From Okeania sp. SIO2B3 (GTDB lineage Bacteria > Cyanobacteriota > Cyanobacteriia > Cyanobacteriales > Microcoleaceae), in assembly GCF_010672525.1 (NCBI RefSeq), contig NZ_JAAHGH010000054.1:1-46041 (forward strand): a stretch of 46,041 nt of DNA. The letters run 5' to 3'. A program made the translations under genes and the position numbers. A model generated the notes under the pieces. That model searched no databases. It worked only from the letters and a program-made list of their open reading frames with translations, and was not told the origin of the DNA. Shown here one piece after another: positions 14,195 to 38,220 of this stretch; position 1 is the stretch's first letter; each line of letters starts with the position of its first letter.

Positions 14195-14850
14195 GTTGAA
14201 TAAAAAGTCATGCTTAGGTACGAATAGATCCTAATACAACAACTGTATCACTATTATTTGGAGAATGCAAGACAAAAAACCTTGGCAATTTTTTAGATGC
14301 TTCACAGAATGACAATTTGTGGGATTTTTCTTGATTAGCGATCGCTTCTATCAAAAATGCAGCTTTGAGGACTCCCGGTATCATCTCCGATTTACCGGGA
14401 GAGGATGTCAAATTTTTGTCTTTTATTTCTCCAGACTATTTCATAGATCTTTCTTGGTTGAATAAAAAGTCAAGTGCATAGGCGAGTTGACCCTTATAGT
14501 TAAATTCTCTCACAATTATTTGAGCAATGCAAGACAAAAAACCTTGGCAATTTTTTTGGTGCTTCACAGAATGACAATTTGTGGGATTTTTCTTGATTAG
14601 CGATCGCTTCTATCAAAAATGCAGCTTTGAGGACTCCCGGTATCATCTCCGATTTACCGGGAGAGGATGTCAAATTTGTGTCTTTTATTTCTCCAGACTA
14701 TTTCATAGATCTTTCTTGATTGAATAAAAAGTCAAGTGTATAGGCGAGTTGACCCTTATAGTTAAATTCTCTCACAATTATTTGAGCAATGCAAGACAAA
14801 AAACCTTGGCAATTTTTTTGGTGCTTCACAGAATGACAATTTGTGGGGTT
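14195..14850. repeat. 262-bp tandem repeat, about 2.5 copies
   Basis: Copies begin at 14195, 14457 and 14719 (period exactly 262), each starting at TTGAATAAAAAGTCA. Shared blocks include GCAAGACAAAAAACCTTGGC, TGCTTCACAGAATGACAATT and an AGCGATCGCTTCTATC HIP1 site. Copies 1 and 2 carry a hairpin CTCCCGGT-N14-ACCGGGAG at 14372-14401 and 14634-14663. Copy 3 stops after GACAATTTGTGGGG. Short open frames inside differ between copies, so I read it as non-coding. Confidence 0.85.
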
Positions 14851-14997
14851 TCTCGCTAGATTTTTTTTAACTTTAAGCTGTAGGGTTGCTGTTTTTTCTC
14901 TTAGTCCTAAAGATATCAGGATATTAGTTAGTATATTCCTTTAATTGTTGGGAGTTAAGCTTCAAAAATTATTATTTGTTTACCACTACCTTTTTTC

Positions 14998-16934: not shown

Positions 16935-19001
16935 TTAATCATAATCTACTTCAAGTACTTCTGTATATTCAAATTCATTCGGACTACGTTTTACTAAAGG
17001 ATAAGATTCTCCACTTAACTGAATAGCATCTTCTTCACAATCTAATTTTGGAGAATTATAGGAAAGTACGTATTCTCTACCAATATAATCAGTCATTTCT
17101 TCAGCTACTTCGCCTCGCCATTGAGTTTTAGTTACTAATACAACTAATTGATTTGCTAATTGAGGAATAATATTGGCAATTTGTCTGCGATAAATTTCAT
17201 CTAAACTGCCAAAAGGGGAATCCATTACTATGGGAAAAGTGCTACTATCGGGTCCCATTAAAGTGTTTTTTTGACTCCAGATTCTTACTTCGTCAATAAT
17301 ACTACCAATAAATGCCAAACTGAGGATTTGATTTTCTCCTGTAGAAGCGGCAACTAAGGCATCTTCTCCACCAGTATTTTCTACTAAAGTTAATTCATAG
17401 TTTTCATTCAATTTAGGAATATAAGGGGTAAAGGAAATTTCTGAAAATAATTCTTGTATTCGTTTTTCCAAAGAAATTCTAAACTGTTTTTCTAGACGCC
17501 CTCGGACTTCTACCAATCTATTCATAGCATCTTGAGTAGCTGCAATTCGCCTTTGGGCTAAAACTTGTTTTAATTCATTCATTTGTTGTTTATCAAGTTG
17601 TTTTTCTAAGACTTTAATTTCTTTATTTAAAGTTTCTAGCTGTAGAGCATTTGAACCAGTTTCTCGGTTTAAGTTTCCTACTTTAATTTCTATTTCATCT
17701 AACCGTTTTTGTAACTGCTGAATATCTTCGTCTGGATAATTTCGTAGTTTTTTATGAACTGACTCTAATTCATTTTCAACCCGTGAAAGTTGATGACGCA
17801 ATTTTTCGATATTACCTTGTTGTCGATCGACTTCATCCCAAAACTCTACTACTTGTTTGTCAATTTCATCTATCTGTATACTCATTCTAATTGCGGTTTC
17901 TTCTACATCAGCAATTTCGGCTTTTTCCATCCATTTTTCTACTGATTTTCTCCCTGGAGAATCTATAGTTAATTCTGCTCCACAAATACAACGTTGTTTT
18001 TCTAATAATTGTTGTACAAACTGTCTTTTAATTCCTATGGGTAACTCACCTTTTTCTTTTAAATTACCAAAAATTTCTCGGAATTTTTCTATGGCATCTG
18101 ACAAGAAAACCATATAACCACGAGTTGATATGGCTCTTTTTAAACTCTGATAAGCTTGTAATATTTGTTCTTTGATTGATACTACCTGGAGATTTAATTG
18201 GTCTTTTTGTTGAGGTAATCCTTCTGCTCCTTTAAACTCCACTAAACGACTACTAATTTCTTTCTTCACTTCTCGATGATTTTGTAATTCTTTCTCTATC
18301 TCTGTTTGGCGTTTTGATAATTTGTTAATTTCTTGTTCAATTTGATTTTTTTCTTTCAGCAGTTTTTTAGTTTCAGGATTACCAATTAATCTCAAATCAG
18401 TTTCTAAGGATTTTTTGGCTTCTCCTAAATGTCTAACAGAACGATTTAATACTTCAATTCCTAATAATTCTTTCGTTGCTTCTGCTATTTCACTTTTCCG
18501 GTCATCTCTAACAATATACTCAATTCTTTCTCCGTCAAAAAAGAAATATCTATGTAAACTTTCTGGCAAAATTCTACCAATAATATCATCAGGATGTTCT
18601 GGGGGTGGAGACCAACGTCCGTCATCTCCAGCTATCTGCATATATAACTCACTTTTACCATGTTCAATTTCATTTTTTTCATTCCTATAAGCTCGTGATA
18701 AACGTTTAGCTTGATACCGTTTATTATCATGTTCAAATACAATTTCTACCCAACAAGCTATGGCTTTACCAAGTTTTGCTTCTGTAATTGCTCGTTTATT
18801 TACCAGTTGAGTTTCTATTACAAAAGCGGCGCTAAATTTTTCATAAAGTACCCAAGTAAAAGCGTTCATTATGGTAGTTTTACCTGCACCATTATTGCCA
18901 TGAATAATTGTTGTATTTTTTTCGCCTGATGCTAAAATTATTTCTGGCGTTTTGCCGTAAAACTGACGAAAGTTACACAAGATAATTGAGATTAATTTCA
19001 T
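16935..19001 (-). CDS. DndD-like SMC/Rad50-type ATPase with Cys hook
   Basis: A 688-residue split-ABC ATPase. Walker A is GNNGAGKTT (35-43). RYFFFDGERIEYIV (151-164) is the FFDGE motif seen in DndD and related ATPases. Two long coiled-coil arms (about 210-285 and 355-480) flank a hook-like CICGAEL (C338, C340). The C-terminal lobe has STGENQILSLAF (signature) and FPIVMDSPFGSLDE (Walker B and D-loop). Family role: ATP-driven DNA engagement in Dnd-type or other defence systems. It is distinct from the dndD at 36 kb, which lacks the cysteine hook. The small ORF upstream and the helicase suggest a restriction-like module. Its original ATGA coupling to the small ORF has been disrupted by a 153-bp tandem duplication. 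Confidence 0.8.
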   Translation of the reverse strand: MKLISIILCNFRQFYGKTPEIILASGEKNTTIIHGNNGAGKTTIMNAFTWVLYEKFSAAFVIETQLVNKRAITEAKLGKAIACWVEIVFEHDNKRYQAKRLSRAYRNEKNEIEHGKSELYMQIAGDDGRWSPPPEHPDDIIGRILPESLHRYFFFDGERIEYIVRDDRKSEIAEATKELLGIEVLNRSVRHLGEAKKSLETDLRLIGNPETKKLLKEKNQIEQEINKLSKRQTEIEKELQNHREVKKEISSRLVEFKGAEGLPQQKDQLNLQVVSIKEQILQAYQSLKRAISTRGYMVFLSDAIEKFREIFGNLKEKGELPIGIKRQFVQQLLEKQRCICGAELTIDSPGRKSVEKWMEKAEIADVEETAIRMSIQIDEIDKQVVEFWDEVDRQQGNIEKLRHQLSRVENELESVHKKLRNYPDEDIQQLQKRLDEIEIKVGNLNRETGSNALQLETLNKEIKVLEKQLDKQQMNELKQVLAQRRIAATQDAMNRLVEVRGRLEKQFRISLEKRIQELFSEISFTPYIPKLNENYELTLVENTGGEDALVAASTGENQILSLAFIGSIIDEVRIWSQKNTLMGPDSSTFPIVMDSPFGSLDEIYRRQIANIIPQLANQLVVLVTKTQWRGEVAEEMTDYIGREYVLSYNSPKLDCEEDAIQLSGESYPLVKRSPNEFEYTEVLEVDYD

Positions 19002-19335
19002 TGCACTGCTTCTTTAATAATTTTGAGAATATCATCTTAATTTAAGGAAGAAGGAAGAAGTAAGAAAACTCCATTTCTCTGATGCCAAAATTATTTCTGG
19101 AGTTTTGCCGTAAAACTGCCGAAAATTACACAAAATAATTGAGATTAATTTCATTGCACTGCTTCTTTAATAATTTTGAGAATATCATCTTAATTTAAGG
19201 AAGAAGGAAGAAGTAAGAAAACTCCATTTCTCTGATGCCAAAATTATTTCTGGAGTTTTGCCGTAAAACTGCCGAAAATTACACAAAATAATTGAAATTA
19301 ATTTCATTGAACTGCTTCCTTGATAATTTTGAGAA
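18929..19335. repeat. 153-bp tandem duplication of the small-ORF/ATPase junction
   Basis: Landmarks recur with a 153-bp period: TTTAAGGAAGAAGGAAGAAG at 19041 and 19194, and AATTTCATTG at about 18995, 19148 and 19301. Each of the two extra units holds the first ~26 codons of the ATPase gene and the last ~9-10 codons of the small upstream gene joined at caATGA, followed by GGAAGAAGGAAG and CTCCATTTCT filler. The junction at 19304-19307 shows the ancestral ATGA overlap; the working ATPase start is at 19001. Confidence 0.85.
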
Positions 19336-19549
19336 TATCATCGTTTATCCGGGGTGTTTTTTTATAAAGTCTGTCTTTTTCTAGTTGTAATACTCGCCCA
19401 ATAATTTGCTTTACTTCTGGGGGTGCAGTAGTAATTGGTTCTTGAATGTTATTCAGTTTTGCTTGAGTTTTAACGTCATACTTTGAATGCTTTTCTGAAA
19501 AAATTGTTGATATTGTTGTAGTTACTTTGTCTGAGTATTTTGAAGTCAT
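19304..19549 (-). CDS. Small conserved-looking partner of the DndD-like ATPase
   Basis: An 81-residue soluble protein with a variable N-terminal half and an ordered C-terminal helical part, APPEVKQIIGRVLQLEKDRL followed by KTPRINDDILKIIKEAV. I do not recognise a named family. It is near the size of DndE but has none of the DndE sequence features I know. Its TGA (19304-19306) overlaps an ATG of a duplicated ATPase 5' fragment as ATGA, so it was ancestrally translationally coupled to the ATPase. That makes it a likely functional partner of the ATPase. The duplicated fragments now separate them by about 300 bp. Confidence 0.65.
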   Translation of the reverse strand: MTSKYSDKVTTTISTIFSEKHSKYDVKTQAKLNNIQEPITTAPPEVKQIIGRVLQLEKDRLYKKTPRINDDILKIIKEAVQ

Positions 19550-31753: not shown

Positions 31754-32737
31754 ATGAGTAAAAATCAAGAATCAAGCAGAGAAAAAAAATTAGCATACTA
31801 CTGTCAACTTTTTACTGAGATTAATACAAGTAAAAGTCAAAAATTAGGTACTGCCAAACACAAGCCAATTTTACTTTTATCTGTAATTGATTTGATTGCA
31901 CAAGGTTTAATCCAAAAGAATGAAATTAATGTTTCAAAAAAATTAGTTGATACTTTTAATCAATACTGGGATCTTCTATCCTCTGATTCTCATCGACGTG
32001 GTTTGTACTATCCTTTTTACCATCTACAGAGCGATAATTTTTGGCATATAAACTTTAACTCTGACTTTATTAATACTTTGCCAGAAAAAACAGTTACAAA
32101 GGAAGACAGGCCAAAATCACTAACAAAGCTAAGAAAAATAGTTAATTATGCCAGTTTTGATGCATAATTATTTGAATTACTACAAGATAAAAATCACAGA
32201 AAAGAATTAACAGATGTACTAATTGCAAATTGGTTCTCAGCCAACCAAAAAGACACCAAAGAACTCATCAGAATTAATCAAAATTTTCAAAAAAATGATG
32301 AGCAAGAAGAAGAACAAAAACAGCCTAAATCATATTTCAGAAAATCTGTACTTAGAGATGGTATTTTTCGTAAAGCAGTTGTACATACTTATAACTATAA
32401 ATGTGCTTTTTGTGGAATAAAAGTAACCATGTCAATCAAGCAAAATATTGTAGATGGAGCGCATATAAAACCATTCGCCAAATTTTATGACAATAGAATA
32501 GATAACGGCATATCACTTTGTAAAAATCATCATTGGGCATTCGATAAAGGTTTATTTACTATCTCTGATGATTATGATTATAGAATTATCGTTTCCAATA
32601 ACTTTCAAGAAGAATCACCAAATTCTAAAGCCATGAAAGAATTTAATGATAATCAGCTTTGGTTGCCTAGTGAAAAAAAATATTTTCCTAGAATAGAAGC
32701 TTTACAATGGCATCGCCAGAATATTTTTATCTCATAA
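31754..32737 (+). pseudogene. HNH endonuclease with sulfur-binding-like N-domain, one in-frame stop
   Basis: A single 328-codon frame interrupted only by TAA at 32165-32167 (codon 138). The N-terminal domain (1-137) has AKHKPILLLSVIDLIAQGLI (34-53) and YPFYHLQSDNFWHI (86-99), resembling the phosphorothioate-DNA-binding domain of ScoMcrA/EcoWI-type enzymes. The C-terminal HNH_2-type domain has CAFC (217-220), GAHIKPF with H237, and ISLCKNHHWAFDKGLF. The frame after the stop keeps coding character to the end, so it looks like a recent nonsense mutation rather than decay. Intact, it would cleave DNA on recognising modification, or serve as the nuclease of the Dnd system. dndC follows 39 bp downstream. 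A re-initiated C-terminal HNH fragment cannot be excluded (ATG at 32429). Confidence 0.8.
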
Positions 32738-32776
32738 AAATAGATATTAATCAAAAAATTGAGGATATTTCTAAAT

Positions 32777-34333
32777 ATGAAAGGTATACAACAATCTTTA
32801 TTTCCCAGCAGAACTACTGCCGAATTAGTAGAAGACATAAAAAAACTAACTACAGAAATTCAAGAACTATATTGTTTAGATTCTATTCCCTGGGTTGTTG
32901 GATATTCAGGCGGTAAAGATAGCACCGCAATATTACAACTAATATGGAATGCGATCGCTGAACTTCCGAAAAAAAAACGAGCTAAAACTATCCACGTTAT
33001 TACCACAGATACATTAGTAGAAAATCCCATCGTTTCTGCTTGGGTAACTAACTCTTTAAACTTGATGGAAGAGGCGGCAAAAAATAATAAACTACCTATA
33101 GAATGTCATTTATTAAAACCAGAAGTCAAAAAAACATACTGGGTGGGATTACTTGGTAAAGGATACCCAGCCCCGCGTCATACATTTCGCTGGTGTACTC
33201 CCCGTTTAAAAATAGATCCATCTAATATTTTTATTCGTAATGTTGTTAGAAATAATGGGGAAACAATAGTTGTTTTAGGAACTCGTAAAACAGAAAGTGC
33301 TAATCGTGCTGCAATAATGAATCAACGAGAAATTGGTAGAATAAGAGACCATTTGAGTCCTCATCCTAGTCTGCTTAATTCTTTACTTTATACTCCTATT
33401 GAAGACTGGCGAACTGATGAAGTTTGGCTATATTTAATGCAGTGGGAAAATCCTTGGGGAAATAGTAATAAAGATTTACTAGCAATGTATCGAGGTGCGA
33501 CGGAAGATAATGAATGTCCGTTAGTAGTTGATACTTCTACTCCTAGTTGTGGAAGTTCTCGTTTTGGATGCTGGGTTTGTACTTTAGTAGATAGTGATAA
33601 ATCTATGTCAGCAATGATTCAAAATGATGAGGAAAAAGAATGGTTACAACCTCTTGTAGATTTGCGTCGGGAACTAGATATTTCTGATAGAGATAAAAGA
33701 GATTTTCGGCGAATTTGGGGTACAGTTCAACTATTTGAACGGAATATAGATGGTGAAGTTTCTGTAGAACCAATTCCTGGTCCGTACAAAAAAGAATGGC
33801 GAGATACTTTACTGAGAAAACTGTTAGAAGCTCAAACACAAATTCGTGAAACTGCTCCAGAAAATATGCGAGATATTACTCTCATTTCTCTGGAAGAACT
33901 GAGTGAAATTAGACGCATTTGGTTAGAGGAAAAACATGAGTTTGATGATAGTTTACCTCGTATATATGAAGAAGTAACAGGAGAGAAATTTGAAGACTGT
34001 CGTCCTGGTGCAGGAATAAGTCTTTTAGGTAGTGATGAATGGTCAGTATTAGAAGAAATATGTAATGGGGATGAAATGCACCTTGAACTTATGGCAAAAC
34101 TGTTAGATACAGAGCGACAATATTATATTAAGTCTCACCGATATAAGATTTATGAAAGTCTCGAACAATGTTTTGAAACAAGTTCTCGATCCAAGGAAGA
34201 AGCTATTCAAAACGCTCATAATAAAAGAGACCTTAAAAAAGCTGTCGAACGAGGAAAAGTCTCAGATAAAATTAAACAATTAAGTTGGGCAAATATGAAA
34301 TTTTCTCCTCAAAATTCGGCAGATATTGAGTAA
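32777..34333 (+). CDS. dndC: DNA phosphorothioation sulfurtransferase DndC
   Basis: A 518-residue PAPS-reductase-like enzyme. The PP-loop is YSGGKDST (43-50). RHTFRWCTPRLK (134-145) is the adenylation/substrate region. Four cysteines, C247, C258, C265 and C268 (spacing 11-7-3), form the [4Fe-4S] site expected in DndC. GYSGGKDSTAILQL and the long helical C-terminal half are also family-typical. In the pathway it activates DNA and passes sulfur from a cysteine desulfurase (DndA/IscS) into the backbone together with DndD and DndE. I choose the ATG at 32777 (GAGGATA 9 bases upstream, MKGIQQSLFP) over a TTG at 32759. It is downstream of the broken HNH gene and upstream of the 137-bp array. Confidence 0.93.
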   Translation: MKGIQQSLFPSRTTAELVEDIKKLTTEIQELYCLDSIPWVVGYSGGKDSTAILQLIWNAIAELPKKKRAKTIHVITTDTLVENPIVSAWVTNSLNLMEEAAKNNKLPIECHLLKPEVKKTYWVGLLGKGYPAPRHTFRWCTPRLKIDPSNIFIRNVVRNNGETIVVLGTRKTESANRAAIMNQREIGRIRDHLSPHPSLLNSLLYTPIEDWRTDEVWLYLMQWENPWGNSNKDLLAMYRGATEDNECPLVVDTSTPSCGSSRFGCWVCTLVDSDKSMSAMIQNDEEKEWLQPLVDLRRELDISDRDKRDFRRIWGTVQLFERNIDGEVSVEPIPGPYKKEWRDTLLRKLLEAQTQIRETAPENMRDITLISLEELSEIRRIWLEEKHEFDDSLPRIYEEVTGEKFEDCRPGAGISLLGSDEWSVLEEICNGDEMHLELMAKLLDTERQYYIKSHRYKIYESLEQCFETSSRSKEEAIQNAHNKRDLKKAVERGKVSDKIKQLSWANMKFSPQNSADIE

Positions 34334-34372
34334 GGGAGTAGGGGAATAGGGGAGTAGGGGAGAAATAAAAAT

Positions 34373-36130
34373 ATGAAACTTTATCTGGAAAATTTATCTT
34401 TTCTTCTACGGGAAAAATGCAAAAATGACTAACAATTGATGAAATTTTATCTTGCAAATTCATCTGTGGAAAACCTCTGTTTTTCTCAGTCTGAGTCAGA
34501 GGCAAAAATTCTCCGTCGCTTGAGACGAAAATTTTATTTGTCAGACCTATCCCCTATAGGAAAAATGCAAAAATGACTAACAACTGATGAAATGTTCTTG
34601 GGAAAACTAATCTGTGGAAAACCTCTATTTTGGCAAGTCTAGGTTAAAGGTAAAAATTCTCTATTGGTGAACAAGAAAATTCTATTTCTCAGACTTATTT
34701 GCTACGATCAAAATTCAACAATAACTAACAACTGATGAAATGTTTTCTGGAAATCTCATCTGTGGGAAACTTCTCTTTTTCTCAGTCTAAGTCAAAGGCA
34801 AAAATTACAAGAAAACTCGATTTGCCAGACCTATCTCCTACCGGGAAAAATTCCACAATGACTAGAAAGTTATGAAAATTTATCTGGAAACCTCATCTGT
34901 GGAAAACCTCCCTTTTTCTCAGTTTGAGTCAGAGGCAAAAATTACAAGAAAACTCGATTTGCCAGACTTAACTTCTACTGGGAAAAATTTCACAATGACT
35001 AGAAAGTTATGAAAATTTATCTGGCAAACTTACCTCTGGGAAACCTCTGTTTTTCTCAGTTTGAGTCAGGGGCAAAAATTCGGGCGTTACTTGAGAAGAA
35101 AATTAGATTGGTCAGACCTATCTCCTACCGGGAAAAATTCCACAATGACTAGAAAGTTATGAAAATTTATCTGGAAAACTCATCTATGGGAAACCTCTGT
35201 TTTTCTCAGTCTAAGTCAAAGGCAAAAATTACAAGAAAATTAGATTGGTCAGACTTACCTCCTACCGGGAAAAATTCCACAATGACTAGAAAGTTATGAA
35301 AATTTATCTGGCAAACTTACCTCTGGGAAACCTCTGTTTTTCTCAGTCTAAGTCAAAGGCAAAAATTACAAGAAAATTAGATTGGTCAGACTTACCTCCT
35401 ACCGGGAAAAATTCCACAATGACTAGAAAGTTATGAAAATTTATCTGGCAAACTTACCTCTGGGAAACCTCTGTTTTTCTCAGTCTAAGTTAAAGGCAAA
35501 AATTACAAGAAAATTAGATTGGTCAGACTTACCTCCTACCGGGAAAAATTCCACAATGACTAGAAAGTTATGAAAATTTATCTGGAAACCTCATCTGTGG
35601 AAAACCTCCCTTTTTCTCAGTTTGAGTCAGAGGCAAAAATGGCAAAAATTCGGGCGTTACTTGAGAAGAAAATTAGATTGGTCAGACCTATCTCCTACCG
35701 GGAAAAATTCCACAATGACTAGAAAATTATGAAAATTTATCTGGAAACCTCATCTGTGGAAAACCTCCCTTTTTCTCAGTTTGAGTCAGAGGCAAAAAAT
35801 ACAAGAAAATTAGATTGGTCAGACTTACCTCCTACCGGGAAAAATTCCACAATGACTAGAAAGTTATGAAAATTTATCTGGCAAACTTACCTCTGGGAAA
35901 CCTCTGTTTTTCTCAGTTTGAGTCAGAGGCAAAAATTCGGGCGTTACTTGAGAAGAAAATTAGATTGGTCAGACCTATCTCCTACCGGGAAAAATTCCAC
36001 AATGACTAGAAAGTTATGAAAATTTATCTGGCAAACTTACCTCTGGGAAACCTTTGTTTTTCTCAGTCTAGGTCAAAGGCAAAAATTCGGGCGTTGGTTG
36101 ACAAGAAAATTCTATTTTTCAAACTTATCT
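34373..36130 (+). repeat. 13-unit ~137-bp tandem array between dndC and dndD
   Basis: Unit starts (ATGAAA) are at 34373, 34439, 34587, 34735, 34872, 35009, 35159, 35296, 35433, 35570, 35729, 35866 and 36016. Spacing is mostly 137, otherwise 148-150 or 159 (first 66). Most units read MKIYLANLPLGNLCFSQ or a variant, then one of two tails. The 137-bp form ends NSTMTRKL with TGA overlapping the next ATG (ATGA). The 150-bp form has a 13-bp insertion around CGGGCGTTACTTGAG, shifts frame and ends in TAG 7 bp before the next ATG. Unit 3 is frameshifted. GGGGAG precedes the first unit. Conserved blocks include CTACCGGGAAAAATTCCACA and AATGACTAGAAAGTTATGAA. No variable spacers, so not CRISPR. Confidence 0.9.
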
Positions 36131-36192
36131 CCTACCGAAAAAAGGTAAATTCTAAGAATAAAAAAATCAAGTTAATTATCCCACTACTTTTT

Positions 36193-36231
36193 TTCCTACT
36201 CCCTATTCCCTATTCCCTATTCCCTATTCCC
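36193..36231 (+). repeat. CCTATTC heptamer repeat at the dndD start
   Basis: About four to five 7-bp units of the TATTCCC type end 6 bases before the dndD ATG. They occupy the place where a ribosome binding site would be, and no AGGAGG-like sequence is seen. Confidence 0.8.
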
Positions 36232-36237
36232 TAAAAA

Positions 36238-38220
36238 ATGATTTTCCTAGAACTTGTCTTACAAAATTTCGGACCATACTCTGGTAAACAAACAATAAAC
36301 CTTCGCCCTACTCTTACCGATCACCCTCGCCCCATCATCTTATTTGGAGGTATGAATGGAGGAGGAAAAACTACTCTTTTAGATGCTATTCGCCTCGCAC
36401 TTTACGGTCATCGCGCCCAATGTTCAACTAGGGGAAATTTAACTTATGGCGACTTTCTTTCTCAATGTGTAAATCGTAATACTCCACCTACAGAAAAAAC
36501 TCGCATTGAATTAGCTTTTGAACATATTCAAGATGACCAAATTGTTGAATATCGCATAGTTCGTACCTGGGAAAAAAATCCTAAAGACGGCAAAGATAGT
36601 TTGGGAATTCTTGATGGTGAATGGCCTGATTCTTACTTAGCAAATGCCTGGGATGAATATATAGAAAATCTCTTACCTTTGGGAATTTCTAATCTATTTC
36701 TCTTTGATGGAGAACAAGTAAAAGAGTTAGCTGAACTAGAAACTCCTCCACCTTTGGTTGTAGATGCAATTCAATCATTATTAGGACTGGAATTAGCTGA
36801 ACGTCTGGCAACAGATTTAGATATTTTGGTGACTCGGAAAAAGAAACAAATTGCTAAAACTACAGAATTAAAAAATTTAGAGGAAATTGAACAAAAACTG
36901 CATCAGCAAAAGACAGATTTGGAAGTTGCTACAGAAAAATCGAAAGATTTGGGAAATAAATTAAAAAAGGCTCAACAAAAACAGCAAAAAGCCATGAGAA
37001 AATTTGTCTCGGAAGGGGGAAAAATTGCTGCTGAAAGAAGTCAGTTAAAACAAGAATTTCAAGATGTCGAATTAGAGATGGAAAATGCTCGTCAGGAAAT
37101 GATTGAACTTGCTGCGGGAGCTTTACCTCTGGCTTTAATTTCTCCTCTTTTGGAACAAGCAAGTTCTCAAGGTGATGTAGAGATTTTACGACATGAAGCA
37201 GAAATAGCTTTAGATGCTTTTCAAGAAAGAGACCGACGTTTAGTTAATTATCTGAATGAGTTGTCTATTCCTGCTGGCAAAATTAGTAAAATTAAAACGT
37301 TTCTCCATCAAGAAAATATGATGATTGAAGAGGATATTAATCAAAGTGATGAATCTTGGTTATTAGCAGATGAGAAGGCATTAACTTTACTAGAAAATTT
37401 GTTGCGCTATGAGATTGAAAATTGTCGGAAAAATGCTCGGGAAAATTTAACTCGTCTCAAAGATTTTGAAGTGGAAATTAATGTTTTGGAAAAGCAGTTG
37501 GTAAGTGCGGCATCTCCGGAAGCTTATGAAATTTTGGAAGCTGCTTTACAGGAGGCACAAACTGAGTTAGCTAGGATACAGATAGCTTGTGAAAATAGTG
37601 AACGCGATTGTAAAAAATTGGAGGATACTATTACTCAAACCAAGAAGGAATTATTTAGTTATACTGATGAAACTATAGAACGTCACAATATTCAAAATAT
37701 CATTGAATCTTCTGGCAAAGTGAAGAAAACTTTGCAGCTATTTAAAGAGAAGTTAACTTTGAAAAAGTTGAATAAGTTAGAGATGGAAGTTACTGAGTGT
37801 TTCCGCTATCTTTTGCATAAATCAGATTTGGTACATCGCGTGGCTATTGATACTAATAACTTTGCTCTTTCTCTCTACGATAATCAAGGACAAATTGTTC
37901 CTAAACATCGCATTTCTGCTGGAGAAAAACAGCTTTTGGCAATTTCTTTTTTATGGGGTTTGGCAAGGGTTTCTGGTAGAAATTTACCCGTCGCTATTGA
38001 TACACCTTTGGGTAGATTAGATTCATCCCACCGTCAGAATTTAGTAGAACGTTATTTCCCTTCTGCTAGTCATCAAGTTATTCTTTTATCTACTGATACT
38101 GAAATTGGTAAATCAGAAGTAAAAAATCTCCGTAACTTAGAGGCGATCGCTCACGAATATTTGCTGGAATATGATGCTCAAAAAAATCAAACTAATCTGG
38201 AAAAAGGATATTTTTGGTAA
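36238..38220 (+). CDS. dndD: DNA sulfur modification ATPase DndD
   Basis: A 660-residue SMC/RecF-like ATPase of the DndD family. The N-terminal FLELVLQNFGPYSGKQTI is followed by Walker A LFGGMNGGGKTTLLDAIRLA (35-54), including the GGxNGxGKTT form typical of DndD. FLFDGEQVKELAE follows, then two coiled-coil arms (about 200-290 and 395-480). The C-terminal lobe has signature ISAGEKQLL (559-567) and Walker B LPVAIDTPLGRLD (583-595). DndD provides ATPase or nicking activity in phosphorothioation with DndC and DndE. The start codon directly follows a CCTATTC heptamer repeat with no ribosome site, and a 1.9-kb array separates it from dndC, so co-expression may be reduced. No dndE follows. Confidence 0.92.
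   Translation: MIFLELVLQNFGPYSGKQTINLRPTLTDHPRPIILFGGMNGGGKTTLLDAIRLALYGHRAQCSTRGNLTYGDFLSQCVNRNTPPTEKTRIELAFEHIQDDQIVEYRIVRTWEKNPKDGKDSLGILDGEWPDSYLANAWDEYIENLLPLGISNLFLFDGEQVKELAELETPPPLVVDAIQSLLGLELAERLATDLDILVTRKKKQIAKTTELKNLEEIEQKLHQQKTDLEVATEKSKDLGNKLKKAQQKQQKAMRKFVSEGGKIAAERSQLKQEFQDVELEMENARQEMIELAAGALPLALISPLLEQASSQGDVEILRHEAEIALDAFQERDRRLVNYLNELSIPAGKISKIKTFLHQENMMIEEDINQSDESWLLADEKALTLLENLLRYEIENCRKNARENLTRLKDFEVEINVLEKQLVSAASPEAYEILEAALQEAQTELARIQIACENSERDCKKLEDTITQTKKELFSYTDETIERHNIQNIIESSGKVKKTLQLFKEKLTLKKLNKLEMEVTECFRYLLHKSDLVHRVAIDTNNFALSLYDNQGQIVPKHRISAGEKQLLAISFLWGLARVSGRNLPVAIDTPLGRLDSSHRQNLVERYFPSASHQVILLSTDTEIGKSEVKNLRNLEAIAHEYLLEYDAQKNQTNLEKGYFW

Follow-up and report, generated by a model that had tools for sequence, protein, structure and literature searches.

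The analysis of 46,041 nucleotides of DNA from the marine filamentous cyanobacterium Okeania sp. SIO2B3 (the window) revealed a tandem array of a 137-bp unit that fills the spacer between a dndC-like and a dndD-like gene. The array is very probably a non-coding minisatellite. This was one of three readings offered in the original prediction, and it is supported by the distribution of variable sites over codon positions, by the occurrence of unit-length frames at chance level, by the rarity of ATGA overlaps in relatives and by confinement of the unit to one locus. Of four minisatellite features that were examined, the array shows three: tandem units, variable copy number and the absence of a codon signature. 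Both in its own genome and in the five relatives that carry it, the unit was detected in the dndC-dndD spacer alone, so the array is locus-specific. Overall, the feature is of an ordinary type, and what makes it interesting is its location.

Layout of the array and its flanks

The names dndC and dndD are based on Pfam matches (PAPS_reduct and AAA_23/SMC_N) and on an adjoining DndB match. The spacer between the two genes is 1904 bp long and, as predicted, is occupied by a tandem array. Twelve full units and a truncated first copy were located between 34373 and 36143 from the sequence itself and by TRF, BLAST and a start scan (Table 1). The last three methods gave the head-to-tail arrangement of units that is characteristic of minisatellites. 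Unit starts were found by the scan at 34439, 34587, 34735, 34872, 35009, 35159, 35296, 35433, 35570, 35729, 35866 and 36016. Six of the 11 steps between them are 137 bp long, which is the dominant period that had been predicted, and the others measure 148 bp (two), 150 bp (two) and 159 bp (one). The last unit runs to 36143 by BLAST and its end is cut by the 3′ flank. Tandem repetition in the array is far beyond chance. The longest exact repeat inside it is 167 bp, and the exact copy number is therefore unsure.

Table 1. Positions of the array, its flanking genes and associated short features in the window.
Feature	Position	Strand	Evidence
dndC-like gene	32759..34333	+	Pfam PAPS_reduct PF01507, E 6.4e-10
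GAGTAGGG-type short tandem repeat, contains GGGGAG before unit 1	34328..34362	+	TRF period 8, 4.4 copies
Truncated first unit	34373..34438	+	Two short unit matches (spacer positions 43-69, 79-101) and sequence
12 units	34439..36143	+	12 BLAST matches, start scan, TRF
Conserved block, 3′ edge of the array	36144..36179	+	Invariant columns in eight aligned spacers, one without the array
CCTATTC short tandem repeat directly 5′ of dndD	36195..36233	+	TRF period 7, 5.6 copies
dndD-like gene	36238..38220	+	Pfam AAA_23 PF13476, E 1.8e-23

The GGGGAG that had been noticed ahead of the first unit is present, but it forms part of the G-rich GAGTAGGG repeat, and the arrays of the related genomes SIO2C9, SIO3I5 and SIO2F4 begin without a GGGGAG repeat. 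The CCTATTC repeat is partly the reverse complement of the GAGTAGGG repeat upstream, with 10-bp exact inverted matches between the two. The conserved stretch of about 36 bp directly behind the array is common to all eight aligned spacers, including the one that lacks an array, and was not seen by eye in the spacers of MAG_R02, MO_207 and SIO1I7. It is possibly a control site of dndD and is regarded here as a candidate. Promoters and terminators were detected at frequencies near chance (6 found and 4.3 expected for the former, 1 and 1.8 for the latter).

Two short ORFs, the second with an HNH_2 domain, are located between dndB and dndC (31754-32167 and 32429-32737). A single DndE match was obtained in the genome, and it lies on a different contig from dndC and dndD (G000:C47:11917-12246).

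Distribution and relatedness of the units

The genome of SIO2B3 (10.0 Mb, 249 contigs) gave 12 BLAST matches to the unit and all 12 are inside this array. Copies at unrelated loci, which had been named in advance as a sign of a minisatellite, were not seen among them; the minisatellite reading is unharmed by this, because a minisatellite that is generated locally needs no such copies. When 59 genomes were searched, unit matches were present in six, the genome of SIO2B3 included. The question had been raised of whether the unit always sits beside dnd genes. It does so wherever it was found, which is in just five of the 58 other genomes: contigs that match the unit also carry dndD, and in all five relatives the matches are within the dndC-dndD spacer. 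These relatives are Okeania hirsuta, with four unit starts, SIO2C9 with 15, SIO3B5 with two, and SIO2F4 and SIO3I5, which are placed in another genus of the same family, with five and ten, respectively; the window has 12. Such variation of copy number between related genomes is a minisatellite feature. The length of the unit likewise varies from genome to genome. Degenerate pieces of the unit are retained in an assembly of Trichodesmium erythraeum.

Spacer lengths were compared in 24 other genomes, a locus being counted only if its dndC match reached residue 500. In the ten genomes with dndD at least 83% identical the spacer is 178-2384 bp long. It ranges from -14 to 980 bp in the 14 more distant genomes, and does not exceed 151 bp in 11 of them.

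The nearest relative, SIO1I7 (dndD 96% identical), has no units apart from a 15-bp match. Its dndC-dndD spacer contains a HEARO RNA (156 bits) and an IscB-type protein with RRXRR (E 5.4e-75) and HNH matches, encoded by an intact ORF. This element is located at L059:4290-5853, and the HEARO match lies directly behind the 15-bp match, which corresponds to the end of the unit. The array thus appears, from this arrangement, to have been replaced by the IscB/HEARO element in SIO1I7. Part of the O. hirsuta spacer looks, on inspection by eye, like the 3′ end of the SIO1I7 element.

In a tree of 42 units the group labels needed 9 changes, as compared with 23.5 in shuffles, which shows that units cluster by genome overall. 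The SIO3I5 units group together, and units from the window, SIO2C9 and O. hirsuta are intermingled in the tree. Mean likeness is 0.849 between units within the window, 0.850 between the window and O. hirsuta and 0.858 between the window and SIO2C9. The units of the window are therefore no more alike than they are to units of these two relatives, which counts against the minisatellite reading. Homogenisation within a genome, judged by unit similarity, appears plain for SIO3I5 and SIO2F4 only.

Tandem arrays of other sequences were frequent in the material sampled. In 800 kb of the SIO2B3 genome (40 stretches from 20 of the 249 contigs, not a random sample) there were 79 arrays with a period of at least 50, and 37 of these were non-coding, defined as having no single frame open over 90% of the array length. 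The same was true of 16 out of 32 arrays in 400 kb of one contig of SIO1I7 and of 18 out of 37 in 400 kb spread over G013, a genome of the same family. It follows that arrays are frequent in the family and are not special to Okeania.

Among individual examples, the window itself contains a 153-bp array at 18926-19342, which reaches into the 5′ end of a minus-strand ATPase-like ORF (16935-19001). This array has one main locus per genome in five genomes of the same genus, SIO2B3 included, with one to eight long matches per genome among the matches listed; it too varies in number, and its short tail matches are dispersed. A 262-bp array of 2.3 copies at 14248-14851 is not open in one frame. Elsewhere in the genome, 24 copies of a 126-bp unit were found (L081:4369-7418), in which no single frame is open despite a period divisible by three. 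In SIO3I5 the 3′ end of dndD is itself amplified, with a period of 149, past the stop codon (L061:7903-9254). Shorter runs of dndD 3′-end copies were observed in the genome G034, and one in SIO2C9.

Folding and coding capacity of the unit

A structured RNA spacer controlling dndD was among the original readings, and folding of the unit RNA on both strands was the check proposed for it. Whole-unit folds were unremarkable. Ten folds, made with units of three genomes and on both strands, gave z values from -1.44 to +2.32; the units are not more stable than shuffled sequences, and this part of the reading is not supported. Rfam returned nothing at gathering score for the window. A consensus fold of 12 chosen units contained 28 pairs on the plus strand, one of them compensated, and 24 pairs on the minus strand, two of them compensated.

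What survives is one small hairpin on the plus strand (unit positions 26-51). Of 30 distinct unit starts, two that contained indels were set aside and 28 were analyzed. In these, 87.5% of cells pair, compared with 46-73% when the register is slid. The covariation score of the hairpin was matched by one shuffle in 500, for a helix that was picked after the fold had been seen. A single pair has changes on both sides, and that pair is broken in seven of the 28 sequences. Double-changed pairs and further pair types are not above shuffles, the observed value being reached by 500/500 and 463/500, respectively. Folded alone, the 30-nt hairpin gave z values of -1.99 to -3.04 in four units, -0.70 in SIO3B5 and -1.02 in Trichodesmium. 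Apart from this hairpin, in which one pair is compensated, nothing hints at a function; it may be weakly suggestive, and we treat it as a lead and not as functional evidence.

The hairpin would be central to a copy-number-tunable RNA or DNA spacer, in which each unit contributed one hairpin and the number of units set the expression of dndD relative to dndC. Its pairing and covariation, and the persistence of the array at the same place in several lineages, favour such a spacer and to that extent count against the minisatellite reading. Nevertheless, a tunable spacer is unlikely: double changes stay at the level of shuffles and one pair alone is compensated, the helix was chosen after viewing the fold, whole units do not fold stably given their composition, the hairpin is weak in SIO3B5 and Trichodesmium, and SIO1I7 has no array. 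If it were true, unequal recombination would tune a phosphorothioation system. Were copy number to affect dndD, the array would offer an easy way of tuning the modification of DNA.

Less likely still is a coding chain, one of the original readings; here micro-proteins of 46-50 aa would be coupled in translation, with a restart at each ATGA. The window itself contains the features from which this chain was built. Frame 0, the one noted originally, begins with ATG in all 12 units. In 11 of them it runs for 44 codons or more without a stop, the exception being the unit at 34587, where it stops after seven codons. The ATGA overlap was found at six of the 11 unit junctions. The expectation that in the length variants the tail would remain open up to a stop just before the next ATG proved correct, since units of 150 and 159 bp have the frame closed by a stop immediately 5′ of the next ATG.

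These features were only partly preserved in the relatives. ATGA is present at 0/3 junctions in O. hirsuta, 2/14 in SIO2C9, 0/4 in SIO2F4, 0/9 in SIO3I5 and 0/1 in SIO3B5, that is, at 2/31 when the five are pooled, so the stop-start overlap is not kept. ATG frames of at least 44 codons occur in 2/4, 6/15, 0/5, 6/10 and 0/2 of their units, in the same order. The steps between units use all residues modulo 3 (17, 15 and 9 of 41). Across the six genomes, 44 of 48 units retain the ATG, and a stop precedes codon 24 in just three of the 48 frames. This retention favours micro-proteins and counts against the minisatellite reading, but it can be explained by common descent, to which we attribute it.

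Variation between units was analyzed over their first 72 nt in 41 gap-free units of five genomes (36 distinct); seven of the 48 units from six genomes had been left out on account of insertions, N runs, shortness or divergence. Variable sites numbered 15, 18 and 8 of 23 at codon positions one, two and three, respectively. The third position is the least variable, which is the opposite of the pattern expected for a constrained protein. A deficit of variable third positions this large has P 0.004 if sites are independent; the sites are in fact linked, and we therefore take this result as the absence of a coding signature and no more. Such absence is itself a minisatellite feature. In frame 0, all pairs together gave a pN/pS of 0.98; the value was 0.72 when genome consensuses were compared and 3.3 for the array of the window alone. 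These values give no indication of purifying selection on this frame. The corresponding ranges for the other five frames were 0.55-0.95, 0.60-0.86 and 0.37-2.42. The value of 3.3 could be held against the minisatellite reading, with diversifying selection as the alternative. We did not adopt this explanation: only a handful of linked blocks of variants lie behind the value, and all pairs pooled give 0.98. The comparison of synonymous and non-synonymous change, suggested with the original prediction, thus gave no coding signature.

A unit-length open frame is at chance level. When the unit was dinucleotide-shuffled and tiled, 9.6% of 2000 trials produced an ATG frame 141 nt or longer, and in 14.5% such a frame spanned 0.9 period or more. 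A unit-length frame is also present in five of the 37 other non-coding arrays sampled from the genome (TRF consensus units, with rows of the window left out). The short open frames in the copies thus look like a chance by-product. Since about one in seven shuffled versions of the unit carries a frame of nearly unit length, tandem arrays can imitate chains of coupled small genes, and this calls for caution in their interpretation.

Unit peptides gave no family match, one having been compared with Pfam and three with PHROGs. There is no clear ribosome site, given that GGGGAG is part of the short repeat and is missing from three of the related arrays. The coding reading was rejected on codon positions, on pN/pS in six frames, on the incomplete survival of the frame in relatives and on the shuffle and array controls.

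Origin of the array and known systems

For the minisatellite we suggest the following origin. A segment of the spacer would have been tandemly duplicated in the common ancestor of the Okeania/Trichodesmium group, and slippage or unequal recombination would then have led to expansion, contraction and partial homogenisation. Repeated copying of one unit with a stop-poor frame could have produced the open frames and ATGA overlaps passively. The most likely sole effect of the array would be a longer spacer between two co-oriented genes. Derivation of the unit from dndC coding DNA was weighed by eye alone and set aside. The locus allows array birth, partial homogenisation, decay and IscB replacement to be compared across related cyanobacteria.

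Two further explanations can be practically discounted. A cluster of phosphorothioation target sites next to the modifying genes is suggested by location alone. GAAC, GTTC, GGCC and CCA/TGG are target motifs of Dnd systems, although they may not be those of this system; the first three occur 1, 1 and 0 times in the array (0.57, 0.57 and 0 per kb versus 2.42, 2.44 and 0.52 in the rest of the window), and CCA plus TGG are at background (26.1 versus 25.1 per kb). An assembly artefact, to which the long exact internal repeat and the N runs in this spacer of two relatives might point, is contradicted by the divergence of the units and by five relatives whose assemblies also place the array in this spacer; only the copy number of the array is doubtful.

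Among known repeats, the LTRR of Anabaena/Nostoc PCC 7120 are described in the relevant part of PMC2408588 as being among short conserved sequences widely spread over the genome. They are similar to the present case in that repeats are found in intergenic DNA of an operon in a filamentous cyanobacterium. By that description, LTRR are set apart by being dispersed, whereas the dnd-spacer unit is 137 bp long and present at one locus; dispersal of this type was not seen in the BLAST matches of the SIO2B3 genome. The TAACTGA-type heptamer repeats before start codons, as presented in the corresponding section of PMC4679880, are short tandem repeats immediately 5′ of a gene, and the CCTATTC repeat before dndD is of similar style. 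The sequence differs, and the likeness concerns the flank and not the 137-bp unit. Long spacers in related organisms are exemplified by Trichodesmium, where about 40% of the genome is given as non-coding in PMC4649490, a paper that deals with introns and in whose main text the word 'repeat' is absent.

A literature search by title did not find the array named anywhere, which is a weak negative, as subscription literature was mostly outside its scope.

The closest parallel is with bacterial minisatellites and VNTR loci, in which non-coding units of tens to hundreds of bases are arranged head to tail, are partly homogenised and vary in copy number. The array in the dndC-dndD spacer is like them in unit size, arrangement, variable copy number and very probable lack of coding function, and it may also be partly homogenised. 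It differs in having a unit longer than that of most typing VNTRs and in its unusual site inside a DNA-modification gene cluster.
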